From contig NZ_JAOWLA010000006.1 of NCBI RefSeq assembly GCF_025751575.1, positions 1 through 64,000 on the forward strand: a DNA stretch of 64,000 nucleotides, written 5' to 3'. Both the position numbers and the translations under genes were made by a program. The first letter of the stretch is position 1; every line of letters begins with the position of its first letter. Below are positions 16,489-59,130 of this stretch, piece by piece. Source of the stretch: Albidovulum sediminicola. Its GTDB lineage: Bacteria; Pseudomonadota; Alphaproteobacteria; Rhodobacterales; Rhodobacteraceae. Under the pieces are notes generated by a model. That model did not search any database. It was not told the DNA's origin and saw only the letters and a list, made by a program, of their open reading frames with translations.

Positions 16489-17901
16489 TCAGCAGCTGTA
16501 GTACATCTGGTACTCGATCGGGTGCGGCGTGTGCTCGTAGGCGTAAACCTCTTCCCACTTCAGCGCCACGTAACCCTCGATCTGGTCGCGGGTGAACACG
16601 TCGCCGGCCAGCAGGAAGTCCATGTCCTTCTCCAGCTCTTCCAGCGCCTCGCGCAGCGAGCCACAGACGGTCGGGATCTCGGCGAGTTCTTCCGGCGGCA
16701 GATCGTAAAGGTCCTTGTCCGAAGCCGCGCCCGGGTCGATCTTGTTCTTGATGCCGTCAAGACCGGCCATCAGAAGGGCCGCGAACGCCAGGTAGGGGTT
16801 GGCCGCCGGATCCGGGAAGCGGGCCTCGACGCGCTTGGCCTTCGGCGATTCGGTCCACGGAATACGCACGCAGCCGGAGCGGTTGCGGGCGGAGTAGGCG
16901 CGCAGAACCGGGGCCTCGAAGCCGGGGATCAGGCGCTTGTAGGAGTTGGTCGAGGGGTTCGTGAAGGCGTTGAGCGCCTTGGCGTGCTTCAGCAGGCCGC
17001 CGATGAACCACAGTGCCTCTTGCGACAGGTCCGCATACTTGTCGCCCGCGAAGAGCGGCTTGCCGTCCTTCCAGATCGACATGTTGACGTGCATACCCGA
17101 GCCGTTGTCGCCCTTCATCGGCTTCGGCATGAAGGTCACCGACTTGCCGTAGGCGTGGGCCACGTTGTGGATCACGTACTTGTACTTCTGCATGTTGTCG
17201 GCTTGTTCGACGAGGCCGCCGAAAATCAGGCCGAGTTCGTGCTGGGCGGTCGCCACCTCGTGGTGGTGCTTATCGACCTTCATGCCCATGCGCTTCATGG
17301 TCGAAAGCATCTCGCCGCGAAGGTCCTGGGCTGCGTCGATCGGGTTGACTGGGAAGTAGCCGCCCTTGTGCTGCGCGCGGTGGGCGAGGTTGCCCATCTC
17401 GTATTCCGTGTCGGTGTTCCAGGCCGCGTCATGCGCATCGATCTGGTAGGCGACCTTGGACGGCGTGACCGAGTAGCGCACGTCGTCGAAGACGAAGAAT
17501 TCGGCTTCCGGACCGAAGTAGGCGGTGTCGCCGATGCCCGAGGCCTTGAGGTAGGCTTCGGCCTTCGATGCGGTGCCGCGCGGGTCGCGGCTGTAGGGCT
17601 CGCCCGTGTCCGGCTCGACCACGTTGCAGTGCACGCACATGGTCTTTTCCGCGTAGAACGGGTCGATATAGACCGAGGACGCGTCCGGGATCAGCTTCAT
17701 GTCGGACTGGTCGATCGACTTCCAGCCGGCGATGGAGGAACCGTCGAACATGAAGCCTTCCTCGAAGAACTCCTCGTCCACCAGATCGACCACCAGCGTC
17801 ACGTGCTGGAGTTTGCCTTTGGGGTCGGTGAAGCGGATGTCGACATATTCGACCTCCTCGTCCTTCATCAGTTTCAGAGCATTCTCGATAGCGCTCATCA
17901 T
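16489..17901 (-). CDS. glnA: Type I glutamine synthetase
   Basis: A 470-residue enzyme that makes glutamine from glutamate, ammonia and ATP, central to nitrogen assimilation. The beta-grasp N-terminus, the [19 protein letters not shown] active-site loop, the [10 protein letters not shown] motif and the [27 protein letters not shown]-domain are all present. The adenylylation loop [10 protein letters not shown] contains the Tyr modified by GlnE, so activity is likely tuned by covalent modification. Two consecutive ATG codons (17901, 17898) could start it; AGGA is 5 or 8 bases upstream. It is second in the glnB-glnA operon with 52 bases between. Confidence 0.98.
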
Positions 17902-17953
17902 TTGATCCTTTCCTTGGGGTTTCGGGCCGGAGGCCGGGGGCCTCCGGGGTGTT

Positions 17954-18334
<381 letters not shown>

Positions 18335-18408
18335 TCACCACTTTCGCTGCGGACGCACAATTGGCTAGGCTTCGGGGAAGCCGGGCCGGATGACGATTCC
18401 AGGCATTA

Positions 18409-18425
18409 TGCACAAAATTTGTGCA
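18409..18425. promoter_or_regulatory. NtrC-like binding site upstream of glnBA
   Basis: TGCACAAAATTTGTGCA has perfect 8-base arms around a central A, flanked by a longer imperfect dyad (GCATT...AATGC). It matches the TGCAC-N7-GTGCA form of NtrC sites. It lies between the divergent glnB and nnr genes. No -24/-12 sigma54 promoter was seen toward glnB, which fits the established Rhodobacter capsulatus case where NtrC works with the housekeeping sigma70 polymerase. Confidence 0.6.
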
Positions 18426-18471
18426 ATGCGCCCGGATTGCGGGCTGTTTATAAACTTTCAGGGTTTCCTTG

Positions 18472-20169
18472 ATGACCGAGTTGCTGACCTCTGCCCAAAT
18501 GCGCGCCATCGAAGCGGCCGCGATCGCCTCCGGCGAGGTGACGGGGCTGGACCTGATGGAGCGCGCCGGACGGGGCGTGGTTGAGGCGATCTTCGAGGCT
18601 TGGCCGGAACTGGCGGCGAACCGCGGGGGCGCCGCCCCCGCACCCCCGGGGTATTTGGGCAATGAAGAAGAGGGGGGCGGGTCCTTTCGGGCGGTCGTAC
18701 TGTGCGGGCCGGGAAACAACGGTGGTGACGGGTTTGTCGTGGCGCGGCTGCTGGCGGAGCGGAGTTGGGAGGTGGAGGTCTTCCTCTATGGCAACCCGGA
18801 AAACCTGCCGCCGGATGCGCGGGTGAACTACGAGCGCTGGAGGGCGTTGGGGGAGGTCAATCCGCTCTCGGGCCGGTCCATTGACATCAGGCGTCATGCC
18901 GGAGCCGTCATCATTGATGCGCTCTTTGGAACCGGTCTTTCACGGCCGCTCGAGGGTGCGGCAGTCGATGTGCAACGATTCCTGCTCGGCCTTAAGGGGC
19001 GGAGCGCAGCGCGAAAGGCGCTGGTCGCCGTGGATTGTCCATCGGGATTGTGCCTCGACTCCGGGCTTCCCATTCAGAAAGGGGCGGGTGCGGCTGGGAT
19101 GTATGTGCCCGCCGCCGATCTCACCGTGACCTTCCAGCGGCGGAAACTGGGCCACGTTATCGGACAGGGGCCGCTCTATTGCGGCCGTGTTGCCGTTGTC
19201 GATATCGGCCTCGACAAAGCCGTCCGCGATGCAGCGGAAGGCCGAAGTGCGGATGCCATCGATCCGATTGCGGCACGGGCCTTTGCGCGCGAAGTCGCGC
19301 GGCCCAACACTTCCGGGGGCGCCTATTACTCGGCGCCCGGAGCAGTTGGCCTGCGAAAGCGCGTCGATCTGCACAAATATCATCAGGGGCACGCCCTGGT
19401 GCTGTCTGGCGGTCCGGGGCGAGGCGGTGCGGCGCGGCTCGCTGCCCGTGGAGCGCTGCGGATCGGGGCCGGGTTGGTCACGCTGGTCGTTCCTCACGAC
19501 GCTGTGGCGGAAACGGCGGCTCGGGTCGATGCGATCATGATCCGCGAAGCGGATGACGCAGCGGCTTTGCTTGATGATGACCGGGTAAATGCGGTTTGCG
19601 TCGGTCCGGGGTTCGGCCTCGATCCGCGGGCAGTGTCACTTCTGGAGGCTGTTCTGGACAGCAAGAAACGCGTCGTGCTCGATGCGGACGCGCTGACGAT
19701 GGTCGGGGCGCAGAGGCATCTCAGGGCAAAGTTGCACGGGGGATGTGTGTTGACACCCCATGAGGGCGAATTCGCCCGCCTGTCGCCGCAGGCCGCCAAG
19801 AAACTCAAGACCACTGCAAAAAGCGGCCCCGCCTATTCCAAGGTTGACGCTACGCGGGAGGTTGCTGCGGAGTTCGGGTGTACCGTTGTGTTCAAGGGGG
19901 CCGACACGGTCATCGCACATGCCGCTGGCCTGTGTTCCGTCCATTCGGCCCATCATGACCGCGCCGCGCCCTGGCTTGCCACCGCCGGGTCGGGCGACGT
20001 TCTGGCGGGATTCATCGCGGGGCTTCTGGCGCGGGGCTTCGCGCCGATGCAGGCGGCAGAGACCGCCGCCTGGCTTCATGTCGAATGCGCGCTTAAGTTC
20101 GGACCCGGCCTCATCGCCGAGGATCTGCCGGAGCAACTGCCGGCGGTCTTTCGTGACCTGGGGCTTTGA
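18472..20169 (+). CDS. nnr: Bifunctional NAD(P)HX epimerase/dehydratase
   Basis: A 565-residue repair enzyme: the N-terminal YjeF_N domain epimerises damaged, hydrated NAD(P)H and the C-terminal ribokinase-like domain dehydrates it with ATP/ADP. The epimerase core VVLCGPGNNGGDGFVVARLL, DALFGTGLSRPL and VDCPSGL are present; the dehydratase half has VVLDADALTMV, LTPHEGEFARL and TAGSGDVLAGFIAGLLARG. An odd in-frame insertion (about residues 50-72, RGGAAPAPPGYLGNEEEGGG) between WPELAAN and SFRAVVLCG coincides with a dispersed DNA repeat seen elsewhere in the window. ATG 18472 is preferred over TTG 18469; no clear Shine-Dalgarno sequence. Confidence 0.95.
   Translation: MTELLTSAQMRAIEAAAIASGEVTGLDLMERAGRGVVEAIFEAWPELAANRGGAAPAPPGYLGNEEEGGGSFRAVVLCGPGNNGGDGFVVARLLAERSWEVEVFLYGNPENLPPDARVNYERWRALGEVNPLSGRSIDIRRHAGAVIIDALFGTGLSRPLEGAAVDVQRFLLGLKGRSAARKALVAVDCPSGLCLDSGLPIQKGAGAAGMYVPAADLTVTFQRRKLGHVIGQGPLYCGRVAVVDIGLDKAVRDAAEGRSADAIDPIAARAFAREVARPNTSGGAYYSAPGAVGLRKRVDLHKYHQGHALVLSGGPGRGGAARLAARGALRIGAGLVTLVVPHDAVAETAARVDAIMIREADDAAALLDDDRVNAVCVGPGFGLDPRAVSLLEAVLDSKKRVVLDADALTMVGAQRHLRAKLHGGCVLTPHEGEFARLSPQAAKKLKTTAKSGPAYSKVDATREVAAEFGCTVVFKGADTVIAHAAGLCSVHSAHHDRAAPWLATAGSGDVLAGFIAGLLARGFAPMQAAETAAWLHVECALKFGPGLIAEDLPEQLPAVFRDLGL
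18622..18670 (+). repeat. Dispersed hairpin/TATTTG repeat, copy 1, inside nnr
   Basis: A GC hairpin (GGGGGCGCCGCCCCC) followed by GCACCCCCGGGG, TATTTGGGCAA and a GAAGAAG tail. The same order of parts recurs at 36991-37041 and, on the minus strand, at 59077-59130. This copy is translated within nnr, adding about 20 residues without breaking the frame. Confidence 0.75.
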
Positions 20170-20172
20170 GCC

Positions 20173-20685
20173 CTAGTCGAGGAAGATGTTGCCGCGCTTG
20201 AACCAGGTCTCGTTTTCGATGCCGGTGCCGGCGCAGAAGACCTCCAGCCCGGCGGCGTAGACGACCTGATCGGTGTCGAACTGGAGCGTGTAGGTGCGCA
20301 GAATCTCGTCCTCGCCACGGCAGATCTCAACCCCATCGACGAGCCGCAGCAGCGGAACGACCGCCTGCGCGCCGCGGCCGCGCTTGCGCCACTGGCGCAT
20401 GACGACGGGCATCCCGGCGGAAAAGGTCATGTCCCGTGCCGGCTGGTCGGCGCCCAGCGTGCTGGCCTTGACCCGGATGGACGGGCCTGCGTGATCCTCG
20501 ACCCAGACGTTGCGCAGGATGCGCATCCCCTCGCGGGTCACGATCCGGTCACCGCTTCCCAGCGTCTCGACAAGGCGGGGGCCTTGCGAGGTGAAGATCC
20601 GGGTCCCTTCCGCGATTCCGTGGAACGTCCCCTCATCCAGGGACGAGGTTTTCCGGGCAAGATTGTCAGAGAACATCAACGACAT
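20173..20685 (-). CDS. Hint-domain protein (Hint_2 type), small
   Basis: A 170-residue protein. GIAEGTRIFTSQGPRLVETLGSGDRIVTREGMRILRNVWVEDH is the Hint/intein-like N-part, and FSAGMPVVMRQWRKRG, YTLQFDTDQVVYAAGLEVF the later beta-strands. Rhodobacterales carry many such Hint_2 proteins, usually as C-terminal modules of large secreted proteins; this one is a stand-alone domain without signal peptide. The usual Cys/Ser at the splice-start position appears as a GT(R) segment, so autocatalytic cleavage is doubtful. It is convergent with nnr with 3 bases between. Function unknown. Confidence 0.78.
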   Translation of the reverse strand: MSLMFSDNLARKTSSLDEGTFHGIAEGTRIFTSQGPRLVETLGSGDRIVTREGMRILRNVWVEDHAGPSIRVKASTLGADQPARDMTFSAGMPVVMRQWRKRGRGAQAVVPLLRLVDGVEICRGEDEILRTYTLQFDTDQVVYAAGLEVFCAGTGIENETWFKRGNIFLD

Positions 20686-36967: not shown

Positions 36968-36990
36968 GCGGCTCGTCGGGCGGCGAGGCC

Positions 36991-37041
36991 GGGGGTTTCA
37001 CACCCCCGGACTCCCGTGGAGTATTTGGGCCAAAGTGAAGG
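36991..37041 (+). repeat. Dispersed hairpin/TATTTG repeat, copy 2, between g2 and g3
   Basis: GGGGGTTTCACACCCCC hairpin, then GGACTCCCGTGGAG, TATTTGGGCCAA and AGTGAAGG. It matches copies at 18622-18670 and 59077-59130 in order of parts. It lies in the 129-base gap between the terminase and portal genes, where its hairpin may trim or attenuate the message. Confidence 0.75.
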
Positions 37042-59076: not shown

Positions 59077-59130
59077 CTTCTTCTTTTCACAAATATCCTC
59101 GGGGGGTGCGGGGGGCAGACAGCCCCCCGC
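59077..59130 (-). repeat. Dispersed hairpin/TATTTG repeat, copy 3, minus strand
   Basis: Read on the minus strand: GCGGGGGGCT...AGCCCCCCGC hairpin, GCACCCCCCGAGGA, TATTTGTGAAAA, GAAGAAG. Same order of parts as the copies at 18622-18670 and 36991-37041. It lies between the exported cyclophilin and tyrS (convergent), and may serve as a terminator for tyrS. Confidence 0.75.

Follow-up and report, generated by a model that had tools for sequence, protein, structure and literature searches.

A dispersed, REP-like palindromic element of the Rhodobacteraceae has probably been captured repeatedly into the gene nnrE from the pool of copies in the host's own genome, after which the insert has been inherited and has sometimes decayed. 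One such copy lies in the window, that is, the whole 64,000-nt stretch of Albidovulum sediminicola DNA analysed here. In the parts of the literature available to us, palindromic repeats within proteins are described mainly from Rickettsia, along with scattered REP cases (PMC3733652, PMC10969869). Here, one loop is hit across dozens of genera, with intergenic relatives and insert-free sister genes for comparison. The system makes testable how a repeat can move without a recognised transposase. Moreover, the in-frame copy permits nucleotide changes at constant protein, so that a role at the DNA or RNA level becomes testable. The finding is also a warning for interpretation: NnrE and XdhB loops in these genomes can derive from repeats.

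The repeat within nnrE

The nnrE-nnrD frame is open at 18469-20169 (+), with a probable ATG start at 18472. Both domains of the fusion are recognised by Pfam (YjeF_N, E 6e-34; Carb_kinase, E 3e-48), and the NCBIfam models yjeF_nterm and yjeF_cterm both exceed their cut-offs. The gene, its insert and the parts of the element are as follows.

18472..20169, + strand: nnrE-nnrD fusion, NAD(P)H-hydrate epimerase / dehydratase (Pfam, NCBIfam, list of open reading frames)
18619..18678, + strand: in-frame insertion of 60 nt, or 20 codons (against empty junctions, e.g. L036 and G006)
18623..18641, + strand: hairpin of the element, GCGGGGGC-GCC-GCCCCCGC, with perfect 8-bp arms (alignment with 22 other copies)
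18644..18662, + strand: conserved core, CCCCGGGGTATTTGGGCAA (pattern search)
18664..18670, + strand: GAAGAAG tail of the element (sequence and alignment of copies)

At the junction, which reads WPELAANRGGAAPAPPGYLGNEEEGGGSFRAVVLCGPGNNGGDG, WPEL and AVVLCGPG are 26 residues apart, compared with 6 in insert-free relatives. The 20 extra residues sit between WPEL and AVVLCGPGNNGGDG, which bears out the first-pass annotation of an interruption of about 20 residues at the WPEL junction. The extra DNA was measured against the empty reference junction L036, where CTGGCGGCG is followed by GGGTCG. The nnrE copy of the dispersed element (~48 nt) itself covers 18623-18670.

The same annotation held that the enzyme is not broken, and the protein carrying the insert does look intact, judging from sequence and model. 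The NnrD half stays open 3' of the insert, the GPGNNGGDG motif is retained and the predicted structure has high confidence to either side of the insert. In particular, an AlphaFold2 model built from 29 sequences (mean pLDDT 85, pTM 0.86) puts the insert between a helix at residues 25-43 and a strand at 73-78. The two blocks of residues 51-70 have mean pLDDT of 52 and 50 and the adjoining blocks 89 and 93; the mean is also low at 151-160 (68) and 201-210 (58). Since the loop is disordered in the predicted model, some 20 extra residues would be tolerated there. For the solved relatives the best alignment begins within the insert, and only a weak match, 2dg2, spans the place, without such residues. 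E. coli is viable without this enzyme, which the annotation had called essential.

Copies in the genome and their setting

The element has a simple plan: a GC hairpin is followed by CCCCGGRRTATTT and this by an A/G-rich tail, about 48-50 nt altogether. Allowing up to two mismatches, CCCCGGRGTATTTGGGCMA is found at 31 places in the genome of A. sediminicola (G000) and the reversed pattern at none. Copies read with their flanks mostly share the order hairpin, ACCCCCGGRR, TATTT, tail, and fall into about three subfamilies. One intergenic copy (L061) equals the nnrE copy across hairpin, core and tail save for a single loop base.

A looser pattern matches the window 6 times; shuffles give a mean of 1.38, and 0 of 100 reach 6. 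Three copies are left once the hairpin is also demanded, at 18644 (+), 37014 (+) and 59103 (-). The two outside nnrE had been annotated at 37.0 and 59.1 kb as intergenic sequences sharing parts with the insert; both are real and intergenic, and their coordinates are correct.

36989..37041, + strand: intergenic copy between two + strand genes (absent at the syntenic place in the congener G006)
59077..59130, - strand: intergenic copy flanked by two converging genes (syntenic place in G006 lacks it)

The G006 spacer that matches the second place is about 0.8 kb long and has a different sequence. The genes on either side of the first copy look like terminase and portal genes, as in a phage or a gene transfer agent cluster. 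An Rfam scan of the window at the gathering threshold returned only two tRNAs, and the element matches no described RNA family.

The setting of the copies was read with an approximate codon-usage gene model trained on the window. We took all 29 own-genome places outside the window and 60 hand-picked loci from four other genomes (20 of the 41 listed copies in G047, 20 of 37 in G051, 10 of 28 in G207 and 10 of 31 in G027), and 87 of these 89 loci could be placed. With nnrE copies excluded, and with a repeat that overlaps a predicted gene only close to the predicted start treated as lying outside that gene, 86 of the 87 copies from the five genomes are outside genes and one is inside, in xdhB. 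A normally intergenic repeat has thus become coding in nnrE, as first annotated. There is a further xdhB copy in G051, outside the 20 of 37 sampled there.

Copies placed between two genes number 25 where both genes are co-directional with the element, 18 where both run opposite to it, 22 where the genes converge and 3 where they diverge; for the remaining 18, only one side or neither has a gene within reach. When the upstream gene has the element's direction, the hairpin begins about 4-50 nt past its stop in 43 of 51 cases. A comparison of intergenic copies at orthologous places in the named 8-kb loci gave no usable pairs. The loci L079 and L085 seem to have two element copies in an inverted, face-to-face arrangement between genes, and G112 has inverted core pairs about 60 nt apart, judged by coordinates.

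Two readings of the insert can be weighed against these results. That it is a chance, low-complexity, GC-rich loop which merely resembles the repeat has next to no probability: the insert is G/C-rich and glycine/proline-rich, but intergenic copies in the same genome share its core and tail and the control gave 0 matches, and on these grounds we rejected this candidate. It is also very unlikely that the element acts as a transcription terminator or attenuator whose nnrE copy regulates by premature termination. The location would suit such a role, given that 76 of the 86 intergenic copies face at least one gene 3' end. However, no run of T follows the hairpin, the nnrE copy folds as RNA no better than dinucleotide shuffles (z 0.58), and the NnrD domain downstream has to be made. 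The two intergenic copies of the window likewise do not fold clearly better than dinucleotide shuffles (z -0.52 and -1.36). A simple intrinsic terminator was rejected because of the missing T-run and the folding. Among 23 aligned own-genome copies, both-sided stem changes occur at 3 of 5 predicted pairs, carried by few sequences.

No match to PF01797, the Y1/RAYT-type transposase, was found in the own genome, for which reason a RAYT-driven REP was rejected; the family was matched in 2 of 22 genomes of the genus, strongly in G007 and below the cut-off in G009.

Spread across the Rhodobacteraceae

The exact string CCCCGGRRTATTT is present in 152 of 198 family genomes, with up to 177 copies per genome, compared with 14 matches of the reversed pattern over all 198. 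The nnrE junction was followed with two queries. An insert-free query matched 120 of 139 family genomes, and 14 of these 120 read as having at least 12 nt extra at this place (split or lengthened matches). A query bearing the insert found matches in 328 of 394 genomes, or 327 of 393 genera. We read 50 loci from the latter, mostly ones that align across the insert: 25 have core and hairpin, 8 hairpin only, 15 neither, and 2 (G046, G401) are unreadable; G230 is represented twice, and G270 is empty. By eye, several of the 15 are decayed copies.

A degenerate pattern for the whole arrangement retrieved 66 stretches of public records in which nnrE contains the repeat, and all 66 are open in frame; the pattern demanded the sense orientation, so this set is uninformative on orientation. 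Genera represented include Leisingera, Ruegeria, Loktanella, Yoonia, Shimia, Tritonibacter, Phaeobacter, Aliiroseovarius and others. Many of the 66 are metagenome bins named to family or class only, and one is labelled Caulobacteraceae. The first-pass annotation had implied that the insertion is unique. This does not hold: the same element lies at the same junction in many genera and also in xdhB, and a restriction to A. sediminicola is rejected, since relatives carry the repeat too.

After removal of 33 duplicate reads of one junction from 191 loci, 158 distinct nnrE junctions remained: 79 with an intact repeat, 56 empty and 23 partial or other, where 79 of 158 is not a frequency, as part of the intact set came from a search pattern in which the repeat was required. 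The empty junctions are 38 aa long in 55 of 56 cases and 37 aa in one. None of the 56 has the residues of the insert, and such residues were not seen in homologues lacking the repeat, the finding that the annotation had named as fatal to its claim. Longer junctions without a clear repeat do occur, several of them decayed copies by eye. A simple pattern finds the core in sense in 64 of the 102 junctions longer than empty and in antisense in none, in a set that is partly sense-selected. Of the 79 intact inserts, 57 have TATTT in codon phase 0, 21 in phase 2 and 1 in phase 1. At one junction (L140, from G372), the hairpin part of the insert stands in three in-frame tandem copies. In G230 (C1:1184268-1185465, L133), two nnrE-like matches about 1 kb apart suggest that the gene is duplicated or split.

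Apart from nnrE, a single own-genome place is coding; it lies in L080, within the xanthine dehydrogenase gene xdhB, identified by TIGR02965 (1035 bits, cut-off 849.5). The surroundings of this copy were matched in 71 of 198 genomes. We read 26 xdhB loops, taken from the better matches, mostly aligning across the insert, and searched in sense orientation. Hairpin and core are present in sense in 15 of the 26, which is not a family frequency, and by eye all are in the PRDIS/PEDIS phase. The repeat is housed in a long variable loop between NFY/NYY and TTPY (L080; L289, L290-L314).

Capture, replacement and descent

Where do the inserts come from? For 9 of 14 genomes, the best match for the nnrE insert is a copy in the same genome (G051 and G093 tied with another genome); the 5 inserts not closest to their own copies are those of G063, G207, G213, G266 and G295. 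The mean best score against own copies is 13.2, compared with 8.5 when genomes are permuted, and none of 20000 permutations was as high (P 5e-5). In 11 of the 14 genomes, no other tested nnrE insert comes as close as the own copies, in a comparison where several copy lists were partial. This own-genome signature in the tail is the strongest independent evidence for repeated capture.

Inheritance leaves traces as well. On a tree of NnrE-NnrD built without the junction, presence and absence of the insert change at least 30 times, compared with 34-50 (mean 43.6) in 100 shuffles; the tree is poorly resolved, and about 23 of its rows have under half of the columns filled. Because there are fewer changes than in the shuffles, part of the distribution is inherited. 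The history of the insert combines inheritance with much turnover, on a weakly supported tree. In addition, the Yoonia/Loktanella-type and Ruegeria-type sets share residues beyond the element, which argues for common descent rather than fresh insertion within each.

Turnover is also seen among close relatives. Related genes, with a fourfold divergence of 0.15-0.30 in the flanks, have the inner stem in common in only 21 of 62 pairs, and the sisters L159 and L181 (support 99) have different hairpins, as the replacement of inserts predicts. At flank divergences of at least 0.45, the inner 7-bp stem is shared in 422 of 2258 pairs.

We propose that the insert represents a single copy of a palindromic, REP-like element that ranges across the Rhodobacteraceae and usually lies just past stop codons. 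A copy from the genome's own pool would land, in sense and in frame, in the disordered loop that leads from an alpha-helix to the first strand of the Rossmann core. Such capture, or the swap of an older insert for another copy, would recur in the family, and between captures the insert would pass on by descent and at times decay. Repeated capture with inheritance is favoured because the inserts resemble copies of their own genome and the empty junctions have one length. We infer that nnrE received copies from the own pool, by new insertion or by conversion, and did not get its insert in a single ancient event.

The ancient event deserves a fair hearing. A single insertion in the ancestor of the Rhodobacteraceae, followed by many losses and homogenised by ectopic gene conversion (concerted evolution), is an unlikely history in our judgement. 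In its favour, site and orientation are identical wherever the junction was read, and the xdhB inserts, by eye, seem to be in one shared frame. The insert has been retained long, along with the flanking residues, in the Yoonia/Loktanella and Ruegeria-type sets, and the tree asks for fewer changes than shuffled labels do. One junction (L132) looks like a scar beside L208, and the switching of hairpin types between related genes is what conversion would produce. On the other hand, repeated deletion would hardly be expected to leave one exact length in nearly all empty junctions, and the nnrE inserts use two main codon phases. We consider it less probable still that nnrE segments bearing the insert moved from genus to genus through homologous recombination in their conserved flanks, in place of repeated insertion. 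This reading draws on the Ruegeria-type inserts, which share flanking residues though their genes do not form one clade, and on the locus studied here. In the congener G006 the gene order of the window is kept, longer blocks are 77-85% identical and none of the three window copies is present. Over 17168-20268, G000 and G006 mostly share 87-100% identity across glnA and glnB and again in the later part of nnrE and in nnrD, with a drop to 60-86% over about 18369-18868. This profile, from the G000/G006 pair (L002), looks like recent recombination around nnrE. The mosaic makes import of the insert by recombination possible for this genome, and it weakens any reading of gain or loss from the pair. 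Against such a spread as the general explanation stand the inserts closer to own copies than to other nnrE inserts (11 of 14 genomes) and the flanking synonymous sites, which have diverged immediately beside near-identical inserts. As for the insertion itself, no target-site duplication could be defined against the strongly diverged empty site of G006, and no terminal inverted repeat was seen among the aligned copies of the element.

Fourfold-degenerate sites

The synonymous sites of the insert vary little in sets that were assembled by a shared insert type, by equal length or by genus name. Flanks here mean well-aligned flanking codons. Among nine Yoonia/Loktanella-type genes, 8 of which are in one clade, the 16 insert codons have 0 differences in 199 pairwise comparisons of fourfold sites, compared with 828 in 1805 for the flanks; among eight Ruegeria-type genes, which are not a clade, the counts are 0 of 245 and 640 of 1255. 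Counted as invariant fourfold columns, this is 5 of 5 in the insert against 7 of 40 in the flank for the former (p 6e-4) and 6 of 6 against 2 of 32 for the latter (p 1e-5). Flanking G/P/A/S codons alone are as variable as the remaining flank codons, and protein letters differ nearly equally in insert and flank (0.090 vs 0.099; 0.152 vs 0.163). Insert and flank differences are 0/85 and 112/550 in a Leisingera set, 0/30 and 54/150 in an Aliiroseovarius-like set, 0/27 and 51/166 in an R. pomeroyi-like set, 4/35 and 77/139 in a Tritonibacter/Epibacterium set and 6/25 and 49/141 in a Shimia-like set. A two-member set (L144/L035) was left out, as it is not a clade.

An unselected check compared pairs of equal length and register among 78 of the 79 intact inserts. 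There, the insert differs at 31 of 303 fourfold sites when flank divergence is 0.30-0.45 and at 22 of 398 when it is at least 0.45. A low divergence that stays flat over time, together with the switching of hairpin types, is as capture or conversion from a homogeneous pool predicts, and it makes purifying selection a less secure explanation of the unchanging synonymous sites. Within one insert type, selection on DNA or RNA is possible, chiefly in the Yoonia/Loktanella set, where residues outside the element are shared and descent is therefore indicated. That the nnrE insert in general retains a role at the DNA or RNA level, under selection as nucleic acid, is a tentative idea with the odds somewhat against it. 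A bolder version seems rather doubtful to us: an undescribed, RAYT-less mobile palindrome that repeatedly enters, in sense, particular codons of NnrE and XdhB loops and doubles as a disordered peptide and a nucleic-acid signal selected strongly enough to keep its synonymous sites fixed.

Comparison with known systems

We found no description of a Rhodobacteraceae repeat of this kind in the open-licence literature, which is not proof of novelty. Three known systems invite comparison, each as described in the excerpts of the cited papers. The Rickettsia palindromic elements (RPE) are inserted in frame in many genes (PMC10969869); they are ~150 bp long with a conserved peptide, and their host genes still look functional (PMC3733652, PMC10969869). 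The likeness is evident, since here too a palindromic repeat lies in frame within functional-looking genes, nnrE and xdhB. Unlike an RPE so described, the present element is ~48-50 nt, is mostly intergenic and has its TATTT in phases 0, 2 and 1 in nnrE; it is set apart by the description of RPE and not by a comparison of sequences. MITEs, small non-autonomous repeats, can also make in-frame fusions, according to the same kind of excerpt (PMC10969869). The element differs in being only ~50 nt; terminal inverted repeats or a target duplication were not recognised among the copies and diverged empty sites compared.

REPs come close in another way. They have been described inside ORFs, including recB, at about the same site in two Xanthomonas species (PMC3733652). 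As excerpted there, REPs (marked by GTAG or CGTC) are short hairpins in tens of copies, at gene 3' ends, between co-directional or converging genes (PMC3733652). The present element shares this general habit: 31 palindrome copies, mostly extragenic and 3' of genes. In contrast, its 23-copy consensus has neither GTAG nor CGTC at the foot of the hairpin, where that source places them (PMC3733652). It has a conserved TATTT and an A/G tail instead, and the own genome has no RAYT gene. As far as these partial descriptions go, the element resembles both REP and RPE yet differs from them in the GTAG/CGTC motif, the RAYT gene and RPE size, and we file it under neither.
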